This document shows, in pieces, positions 40,608 through 42,843 of a stretch of DNA of 42,843 bases; within the stretch, counting starts at the first letter, position 1; every line of letters starts with the position of its first letter. Source of the stretch: Rhodobacterales bacterium (GTDB taxonomy: Bacteria > Pseudomonadota > Alphaproteobacteria > Rhodobacterales > Rhodobacteraceae). The translations under genes and the position numbers were made by a program. The stretch spans positions 1-42,843 of the forward strand of contig QKJR01000013.1 in NCBI GenBank assembly GCA_003249215.1, written 5' to 3'. The notes under the pieces are model-generated. The model made no database searches. It saw nothing but the letters and a program-made list of their open reading frames with translations, and was not told the DNA's origin.

Positions 40608-40683
40608 GGGCCGTTAGCTCAGTTGGTAGAGCAACTGACTTTTAATCAGTGGGTCGCAGGTTCGAATCCTGCACGGCTCACCA
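40608..40683 (+). tRNA. tRNA-Lys(TTT), 76 nt with encoded CCA
   Basis: The acceptor GGGCCGT (40608-40614) pairs with ACGGCTC before ACCA. The D-arm contains TAGCTCAGTTGGTAGAGC, the anticodon arm is ACTGA-CTTTTAA-TCAGT with anticodon TTT, and the T-arm contains GGTTCGAATCC. tRNA 3' ends are common integration sites; lower-GC and mobile DNA follows. Confidence 0.97.
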
Positions 40684-40875: not shown

Positions 40876-41433
40876 ATGACCTTCTGGTACACCGCCGACC
40901 TCCATTTCGGGCATGAGAGCATCATCCCCAACGCCCGGCGCCCGTTCCGCGACACCGCGCATATGGATACCGCGCTGATCGAGGCACTTTGGCAGAAGGT
41001 CGGCCCCGAAGACGACCTCTGGATCATCGGCGATTTCGCTTTCGGGCCGAAGGCGAAGGACCCCGACTGGCTGCTCGCGCTCTACTCTCAGCTTCCGGGC
41101 GCGCGACGGCACCTGATCGTCGGCAATCATGACGGCCCGCTGACGCAGGCGCTGCCGTGGGACAGCGTGTCCCTGCTCGCCGAAGTGCAGGACCCCGCCG
41201 CGCCCCTGCCGGTCACGCTCTGCCATTACCCGATGATGACGTGGAACGGCGCGAGGAAAGGCGCGCTGCACCTGTTCGGGCACGTTCACGGAAACTGGCA
41301 AGGCAGCGCCAACAGTATCAACGTCGGTGTCGATGTCTGGAATTATGCGCCTGTCACGATTGCAGAGGCCGCCCGGCGCGCAAAGGCATTGCCGAAGCAC
41401 AAGCACTGGAAAGACGTGGAGCCGAGAGCGTGA
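40876..41433 (+). CDS. Small calcineurin-like metallophosphoesterase
   Basis: A 185-residue phosphoesterase with YTADLHFGHESII, IIGDFAFG, IVGNHDG, LCHYPMMTWNG and FGHVHGNW, a complete metal-binding set in compact form. Such proteins occur in bacteria and phages; their substrates are mostly unknown. ATG 40876 (MTFWYTAD) is chosen; the frame is open to 40774 without similarity. It keeps the high GC of the core genome although it lies between the tRNA repeats and the low-GC TIR gene. Confidence 0.83.
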   Translation: MTFWYTADLHFGHESIIPNARRPFRDTAHMDTALIEALWQKVGPEDDLWIIGDFAFGPKAKDPDWLLALYSQLPGARRHLIVGNHDGPLTQALPWDSVSLLAEVQDPAAPLPVTLCHYPMMTWNGARKGALHLFGHVHGNWQGSANSINVGVDVWNYAPVTIAEAARRAKALPKHKHWKDVEPRA

Positions 41434-41717
41434 GGGATAGCGGCGCTTCCTAGAATGTACATCGGCGACATACCCAGCCCACCGCGGCCGTTCGCCAGGC
41501 TTGGCGATCGCTGCGGTGCAGCTTCACCAAACCGGCCATTCGAGGCATTTTGCAACGTGGCCCTGCAGGCGGAGGTCAGCAACGCGGGACCAAGCTAACC
41601 TTCGACGAACGGCAGCTTCCGGTGCGGAACATAAACGGTCGTTATCGCCGGTGACAGACACGTACGAGTTTTGTCTAAGACGGCGACTAGTTGCTCGCAA
41701 TCTGCGATGTTTATCAG
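41434..41717. other. Intergenic stretch without recognisable gene
   Basis: About 280 bp. A 92-codon plus-strand frame (41501-41779) overlaps the TIR gene end and has no protein-like features. Composition falls from core-like to lower GC along it, consistent with the decayed edge of an island. Confidence 0.4.
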
Positions 41718-42692
41718 TCAGGAAAACCATCGGCGGGTTTTCCCGGTTGGTTCTGGAGCAGGGGTGTAGGGCATCTTGAGAGGGCCAATACATGTTTGAT
41801 CACCTCCAAGCCGTTTTGCTTCCTGCATGCCAACACAAGCACGAATAACCGTGTCCACGCCTTCTTCAGTTGGCAGATTTAGGGCGTACCCAACACTGCA
41901 AGTTACCCAGAGATCATGAGCTATCTTGCCCCATTCATGATCCTTAATTGAGCGTCGAAGCCCATCCACAAAGTCAAATGGCGTCACGACCTTGTCTCCT
42001 TCCCAATAATCGCGCCACTTTCGCTCCACGCCGTAAATTACAGCGTAAAACGTATCGTCTCCGCACCTGCCAACGTCCGCGGTATTATCGCGAAGCTCCA
42101 ACTTCAGAGACTTTTGCACTCTGCCTAAAACTAACTCTCCCACCTCGTCTCCAAATCGACTGTTGATTCTTGTAAGGCCATCAATGTCGAACATAACGAC
42201 TGATGCTCGCCCCTTCTTTCTTTTTTGAAATATACGTGTCGTGAGCTTTTCTTCGAGAAACCGACGCCCCTCTTCTCTTTCTGAGAGGCTGTCCCGAAAT
42301 CTAGCGGCTGTCTCGTCTCCGAGAGCTCTTTTGTTGAGCGCGCGAGCGATTGCTTCAGCACACCGTTCAACACCAGATTGACTATTCAGCGCCAATAGAT
42401 CGGTCAAAAGGGGAGAAAATTCGTTGACATTCTTCCGGCTAACGCCATGCCAGATTGGTATTAACGAGCTCTTTTTCTCCAACATCGCACTAAAAAGTGC
42501 TGCCAGCTCAGCGCGGGTCCAACCACTTTCGAAGAACGCCTCACTGAGGATAACAACGCCAAGTTGGGACTTCCTAAGGCCGTCACTTATCTGGCTGAAG
42601 ATGCTGTCTCCAGGTGCAATAACGTACTCATCATACCATACTTTCAACCCAAACTTACCTAGCTGATCAGCAAGAGGTCGAACAAAATTCAC
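41718..42692 (-). CDS. TIR domain fused to degenerate GGDEF-like domain, 5'-truncated by an IS
   Basis: 324 residues remain. Residues 1-115 are a bacterial TIR domain: FVRPLADQLGKFGLKVWYDE, GDSIFSQISDGLRKSQLGVVILS, then W58-TRAE62-L with the putative NADase Glu, and IPIWHGV. A helical linker (about 116-160) leads to a GGDEF-fold domain (163-305): VVMFDIDGLTRINSRFGDE with metal Asp D169 and N177, then DVGRCGDDTF, so the GGDEF signature reads GDDTF (211-215), and a canonical end VTCSVGYA...QEAKRLGGDQ. The GTG at 42692 is only the first possible start; codons for QFTDK continue upstream until IS sequence begins, so roughly the first beta-strand of TIR is lost. GC is far below the core genome. 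Probably an immune or stress effector with nucleotide signalling; function inferred. Confidence 0.8.
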   Translation of the reverse strand: MNFVRPLADQLGKFGLKVWYDEYVIAPGDSIFSQISDGLRKSQLGVVILSEAFFESGWTRAELAALFSAMLEKKSSLIPIWHGVSRKNVNEFSPLLTDLLALNSQSGVERCAEAIARALNKRALGDETAARFRDSLSEREEGRRFLEEKLTTRIFQKRKKGRASVVMFDIDGLTRINSRFGDEVGELVLGRVQKSLKLELRDNTADVGRCGDDTFYAVIYGVERKWRDYWEGDKVVTPFDFVDGLRRSIKDHEWGKIAHDLWVTCSVGYALNLPTEEGVDTVIRACVGMQEAKRLGGDQTCIGPLKMPYTPAPEPTGKTRRWFS

Positions 42693-42711
42693 CTTGTCAG
42701 TGAACTGATGC

Positions 42712-42843
42712 GGTGGATGCCCCCACCCAACGGCATCACGTATGCCATGATGGTTTCATCGGAACCGAAAGGGAGGGCACATCGATGACGACACCGATCA
42801 GCATGCTGGCGATCGACTTGGCGAAGGGCAGTTTCCAAGTCTG
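42712..42843 (+). mobile_element. IS110-family insertion sequence, left end (runs off window)
   Basis: The transposase start at 42785 and the abrupt loss of TIR similarity near 42705-42715 place an IS end here; the exact base is not determinable. Only about 70 bp separate the boundary from the transposase ATG. IS110-family elements lack terminal inverted repeats and usually duplicate no target, consistent with none being visible. Confidence 0.65.
42785..42843 (+). CDS. IS110-family transposase, N-terminal fragment
   Basis: Nineteen codons are visible: MTTPISMLAIDLAKGSFQV. LAIDLAKGSFQV matches the RuvC-like DEDD catalytic start of IS110/IS1111 transposases (typically GIDLAKNVFQVHG), including the first catalytic Asp. 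GGGAGGG (42771-42777) is the ribosome site. The gene continues beyond the window. Confidence 0.85.
   Translation, partial: MTTPISMLAIDLAKGSFQV

Follow-up and report, generated by a model that had tools for sequence, protein, structure and literature searches.

One reading frame of the window, as we call the whole stretch of 42,843 nucleotides that was analysed, encodes an N-terminal TIR domain followed by a GGDEF domain with a degenerate signature, and this fusion in one frame is real and lies far beyond chance. The pairing of the two domains is, as far as our searches reach, undescribed. The copy in the window is damaged, as a mobile element has taken its 5' end; another copy, found elsewhere, is apparently intact. 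For the intact protein we propose, with about an even chance of being right, that it would act as an anti-phage effector in a single chain, with a TIR NADase under the control of a GGDEF domain that is itself catalytically degenerate.

Domain composition of the fusion protein

In the window ORF, Pfam matches above the curated cut-offs were obtained for TIR_2 (E 6.2e-15, residues 2-85), TIR (3.4e-12) and GGDEF (PF00990; 5.3e-13, residues 142-224), and phmmer comparison with the PDB returned AbTIR (1.6e-24) and a GGDEF protein (3.7e-7). Together with the second fusion, L008, these matches bear out the first-pass annotation of this DNA, in which TIR and GGDEF had been placed in one polypeptide. 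The coordinates are collected in Table 1, and residue n of the window protein corresponds to residue n+16 of L008. The GC content of the gene is 49.4% versus 67.4% for positions 1-41587, where the lowest value among 975-base windows (in steps of 25) is 60.3%.

Table 1. Positions in the window of the fusion gene, its parts and the adjoining features.
Feature	Position	Strand	Basis or remark
tRNA-Lys (ttt)	40608..40683	+	tRNA prediction
Small metallophosphoesterase gene, bordering the variable site	40876..41433	+	Pfam Metallophos 9.6e-5
Start of inserted stretch	41588..41717		Sister genome G833 is homologous up to about 41587
TIR-GGDEF gene, 5'-truncated remnant	41718..42692	-	324 codons open from GTG, not the original start
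C-terminal tail, 18 residues, same in both copies	41721..41774	-	Alignment with L008
Degenerate GGDEF domain	41775..42245	-	Pfam and alignment
Linker	42246..42332	-	Helical in a low-confidence part of the full-length model (10-residue block means 32-46)
TIR domain part, first strand missing	42333..42692	-	Pfam, phmmer, alignment to AbTIR
IS110-family element end	42700..42843	+	Exact edge between 42696 and 42700

In the TIR half the catalytic glutamate of the WxxxE motif is kept (W58/E62 in the window protein, W74/E78 in L008), and the residue proposed earlier as catalytic, E62, is by alignment the equivalent of AbTIR E208; W58, D21 and R5 correspond in the same way to AbTIR W204, D167 and R151. 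D37, W74 and E78 (L008 numbers) are among the 12 invariant columns of a 17-row TIR alignment. Eight inhibitory positions of AbTIR were taken from the portion of PMC11374754 available to us, in which one of them appears in print as V103 and also as V193; L008 keeps six (S10, R21, D37, V63, W74, E78) and differs at two (Y238 to Phe and R215 to Ala). The AlphaFold model of L008 is confident in its TIR half, with block means of 69-94 pLDDT over residues 1-140 at a whole-model mean of 55.4, and the top 21 rows of its comparison with the PDB are chains of PdTIR, TcpB/BtpA, AbTIR and BtTir, with TM-scores by target of 0.83-0.92 in 18 and 0.71-0.73 in three. ThsB profiles also match the TIR domain. 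The TIR fold and the significant TIR profile match by which TIR NADase effectors are recognised are both present, and cleavage of NAD+ is predicted for the intact protein.

The GGDEF domain spans, by alignment, approximately residues 150-306 of the window protein. PF00990, with 161 profile positions, is covered from 11 to 93 in the window copy and from 11 to 158 in L008, for which the match reaches 9.9e-14 and TIGR00254 scores 44.4 bits (cut-off 37.4), and the GGDEF part matches 7e6g by phmmer (1.1e-8). The signature reads GDDTF in both copies (residues 211-215 in the window) and thereby departs from the GG[DE]EF motif of diguanylate cyclases; the canonical motif is found in all seven comparison domains, of which the two host genomes supplied four and MAGs with the titles Acidobacteriaceae and actinobacteria the other three. 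D185, D187, N193 and K309 (L008 numbers) are invariant between the fusion and these seven domains, and the window protein keeps FDID (D169), N177 and the Lys of AKRLGG; the signature, D169 and N177 had been read correctly in the first-pass annotation. After PleD-type structures we take the kept acids to be metal ligands, the Asn to be a guanine contact and the Lys a phosphate contact. The Asp of GxxxGD, presumably a guanine contact as well, is Glu in the fusion, which counts against our proposal, and about 15 extra residues follow the signature hairpin. The RxxD inhibitory site, present in only some diguanylate cyclases, is absent by alignment, and binding of c-di-GMP by the domain finds no support.

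Profile searches and structure prediction had both been suggested at the outset. The former yielded significant TIR and GGDEF matches in both copies, and no mCpol model, which Pfam includes, appeared among the matches of the window protein up to E 1. The latter supported the TIR half with its PDB matches and left the GGDEF half of the L008 model mostly below a pLDDT of 50, so that the assignment of this domain rests on the sequence matches to PF00990, TIGR00254 and by phmmer. On the two points at which the earlier reading had been staked, the match of the GGDEF part to its family is significant, and a second TIR-GGDEF protein is known in L008.

Truncation, an apparently intact relative and distribution

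From position 42696 outward, 148 of 150 bases align at 99.3% identity to a stretch of a Thioclava plasmid that is annotated as IS110 transposase; the alignment of the window with L008 stops at about 42700, and the contig end at 42843 falls inside the element. As the DNA from about 42696 outward belongs to an IS110-family element, the gene did not originally begin at this GTG, which is an accident of the landing site of the element. The first-pass annotation had overlooked this loss of the 5' end. About 16 codons are gone, among them those for the opening strand of the TIR domain and for the counterpart of AbTIR S140, a Ser whose change inhibits the NADase according to the accessible text of PMC11374754; that the window copy works is therefore not supported. 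The genome itself holds no match to the TIR-GGDEF ORF other than the ORF.

The search for the same fusion elsewhere, also advised from the start, led to L008 (JAUILL010000076.1, from the MAG Alphaproteobacteria bacterium Co_bin.45), which encodes 340 residues when counted from the ATG best placed for the beginning of the TIR domain, the frame staying open further upstream. It shares 92% amino-acid identity with the window protein over the common part and 907 of 969 bases with the gene. The homology ends just past the stop codon and the flanks are unrelated and cannot be aligned, and therefore the gene probably moves alone or with small cargo. No partner gene is common to the two copies. The dN/dS ratio, from Nei-Gojobori type counts with Jukes-Cantor correction, is 0.20 over the 323 shared codons, 0.38 in the TIR part and 0.15 in the GGDEF part; as only two copies were found, conservation and dN/dS rest on one sequence pair. 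These values suggest that the altered GGDEF domain is kept under selection, and the higher ratio of the TIR part counts against our proposal.

The fusion is rare; with scans of limited sensitivity, this is a safer statement than that it exists in two copies only. Among overlapping genome samples, each including the own genome and the large ones scored with at most five candidates per genome, any match was obtained in 5 of 385 genomes of the class (E 1e-10), 12 of 394 of the family (1e-8), 4 of 390 of the order (1e-12), 10 of 388 of the phylum (1e-12) and 2 of 18 of the genus (1e-6). Across all five samples the matched range covered both domains in the own genome only, which leaves the fusion in 1 of the 18 genomes of the genus. 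A contig scan of 96 stretches gave four relatives, one of them with both domains (L008); as it uses short peptide patterns, distant fusions may be missed by it. Three scans of viral contigs gave no fusion, and among 26 viral-contig TIR loci the 20 whose frames were read by eye showed no GGDEF after the TIR domain. A single region covering 80% of the query was present in none of 168 matched plasmid records and, in a second scan, in 1 of 330, an Acinetobacter sequence (H47, 81%) annotated as diguanylate cyclase (E 2e-6). None of six phages showed fusion-type coverage, and E. coli genomes gave no DNA match at blastn sensitivity.

Several candidates were rejected. A Microbacterium plasmid (H48) covering 73% of the query has a stop right after the TIR domain and unrelated-looking sequence beyond, and a match from the same genus (L070), reaching query residue 182 with four stops, is a TIR-only ORF of 161 residues. 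By reading, L004-L006 and L009-L011 are GGDEF-only proteins with canonical motifs and other N-termini, and L002, L003 and L013-L015 are TIR relatives lacking GGDEF; the same holds for L007 and L085 by annotation or translation. The further TIR loci (L016-L024, L052, L069, L075-L083) were classed solely by the part of the query that they matched. One viral-contig TIR protein (L040, 2875-4308) has, by eye, a DnaB/RadA-like ATPase as its C-terminal part, an unusual pairing for TIR.

Genomic setting

The first-pass annotation had described the surroundings as tRNA-adjacent, low in GC, next to an IS and fitting a defence island, and this description agrees with the tRNA-Lys, the composition and the IS110 edge reported here. 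In G833, of the same genus, the same tRNA-Lys and metallophosphoesterase genes are followed, from the homology breakpoint, by CBASS (cyclase 2.7e-187, E2 2e-45, endonuclease effector 1.3e-124, also matched by SAVED_HNH at 1.2e-116) and Septu (PtuA 7.2e-123, PtuB 5.4e-54).

Six of the 18 genomes sampled from the genus, counting the own one, hold relatives of the metallophosphoesterase region (E 1e-50). Outside the own genome six places were found and five, all except G1035, were inspected; defence-family matches adjoin the metallophosphoesterase at four of these five, a count from those sites alone with no comparison loci. Besides G833, a TIR-NLR-like match (3.6e-27) with type II restriction-modification lies beside it in G430 (contig C60), type I restriction-modification in G1031 and the candidate PDC-S09 (1.5e-17) on a further G430 contig (C12), which the tRNA-Ala there rules out as the same site as that of the window; G1034, at a tRNA-Lys site, carries an insertion sequence and two-component genes, as judged by reading only. 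The small metallophosphoesterase gene (in the window, G833, G430, G1031 and G1034; loci L061, L062, L071-L073), which sometimes lies behind tRNA-Lys or tRNA-Ala, is a possible defence-hotspot marker in the genus.

Convergent to the fusion in L008 lie a ThsB_TIR gene (PF08937, 1e-14) and, by reading, a gene for a membrane-type protein. Scanning three neighbours in L008 revealed no ThsA, and the window contig ends near the gene. Taken by themselves, these two neighbours (L008 1885-3083, minus strand) overlap, the end of the ThsB_TIR-family gene with the start of that for the membrane-type protein, which has 220 residues and no Pfam, PADLOC or NCBIfam match; a two-gene system of a TIR-like protein and a membrane effector is possible there.

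Known systems and models of function

The AbTIR/PdTIR-type NADases (including the group of the PADLOC model PDC-S66) resemble the fusion in TIR sequence and fold, in WxxxE, in the Asp of the BB region and in the Arg of helix A, whereas the relatives found have other partners instead of GGDEF, several being annotated as DUF1883-TIR. Cat1 (CARF-TIR), TIR-STING and TIR-SAVED likewise unite TIR with a nucleotide-sensing domain in one chain; in contrast to the fusion, their sensor is CARF, STING or SAVED and their signal is made by a separate cyclase. The few neighbouring genes that were examined, one for the window copy and three for L008, include no recognisable cyclase gene or CD-NTase, both contigs ending close to the gene. 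PdeA/CC3396 of Caulobacter has, as the fusion would, a degenerate domain (GEDEF) as in-chain regulator, with an EAL phosphodiesterase as output instead of TIR, and in the part of PMC4823724 available its GEDEF domain is described to bind GTP and to activate the neighbouring domain. Palm-fold nucleotide domains in a conflict setting are also known from the Panoptes mCpol (OptS) and from VMAP-type conflict proteins. OptS is encoded apart from the effector OptE, some mCpol genes being fused to HEPN or 2TM domains, and in VMAP-type proteins GGDEF and TIR are alternative signalling domains that are not joined (PMC7159879); these statements come from portions of the sources. No published description of a TIR-GGDEF fusion was found in the literature searched, in which subscription journals are thinly covered, nor in the accessible portions of PMC12657218, PMC7159879 and PMC10910872, in keeping with the earlier remark that no such architecture was known.

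In the mechanism that we propose, the N-terminal TIR domain would cleave NAD+, or convert it to a cyclic ADP-ribose, once TIR domains meet, and the C-terminal GGDEF domain would have lost its cyclase chemistry and taken a regulatory role. It may bind a purine NTP at the former catalytic site, a cyclic nucleotide or a protein partner, and a change in its dimer state would release or assemble the TIR domain. TIR enzymes become active on assembly, and GGDEF domains form pairs, the latter as also described in PMC5635695; the simplest switch in one chain would be a nucleotide-dependent pairing of GGDEF by which TIR is assembled or freed. GTP-type binding is our favoured guess for the ligand, since the acids presumed to bind metal are kept, as are the Asn and Lys presumed to contact guanine and phosphate, and the c-di-GMP inhibitory site is absent. 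Nucleotide binding, gating and a role in defence are predicted from sequence, as is the union of sensor and effector in one chain, and the low confidence of the GGDEF model and the lack of shared partner genes weigh against them.

Instead of binding a nucleotide, the GGDEF-type domain might be a protein-interaction or decoy module that associates with diguanylate cyclases of the host, or imitates one towards a phage factor, and so controls TIR. Strong contacts, homo- or heteromeric, are described for some of the degenerate GGDEF domains in E. coli (PMC5635695, in the part available), and two other GGDEF proteins with canonical motifs were found in each of the two host genomes, for the own genome a minimum, as its assembly is 82% complete. 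The presumed nucleotide-site residues, however, are kept though they should not be needed for this, no direct evidence was found among the data gathered, and we hold this explanation to be unlikely.

It appears somewhat less likely still that the domain is an active cyclase with unusual chemistry, the product of which is read by TIR or releases it. The presumed metal acids (the first Asp of FDID and the third-position Asp of GDDTF) and the base-recognition Asn are kept, and Panoptes mCpol enzymes synthesise cyclic dinucleotides with almost no GGDEF motif, as stated in the portion of PMC12657218 available. Against this, the second Gly and the Glu of the motif are replaced, the Pfam match is to GGDEF and not to mCpol, and no separate ligand-binding domain for a product was recognised.

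A shade more doubtful again is a host regulatory or stress protein outside defence that would consume NAD according to nucleotide state. GGDEF usually serves housekeeping signalling, and L008 lies, by eye, near chemotaxis-like genes, but the low GC, the patchy presence within the genus, the IS edge and the defence-bearing site in G833 argue otherwise. A chance fusion or assembly artefact without function, to which the rarity and the truncated window copy might point, is very improbable in view of two contigs from different genomes with 907 of 969 bases identical, different flanks and a dN/dS of 0.2.

TIR effectors usually receive their trigger from a nucleotide of other origin or from a sensor domain of the CARF, STING, SAVED or NLR kind. 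It is doubtful, to the same degree as the active cyclase, that the fusion amounts to a whole immune system in one protein. In that case its GGDEF palm domain, put to a new use, would make or sense its own nucleotide and directly switch the TIR NADase of the same chain, with synthase, sensor and killer fused. If the GGDEF domain takes the sensor role that we propose, the commonest second-messenger fold of bacteria would be linked directly to NAD depletion, and the level of GTP or of a cyclic dinucleotide would serve as an infection cue, which could be tested with one small gene.
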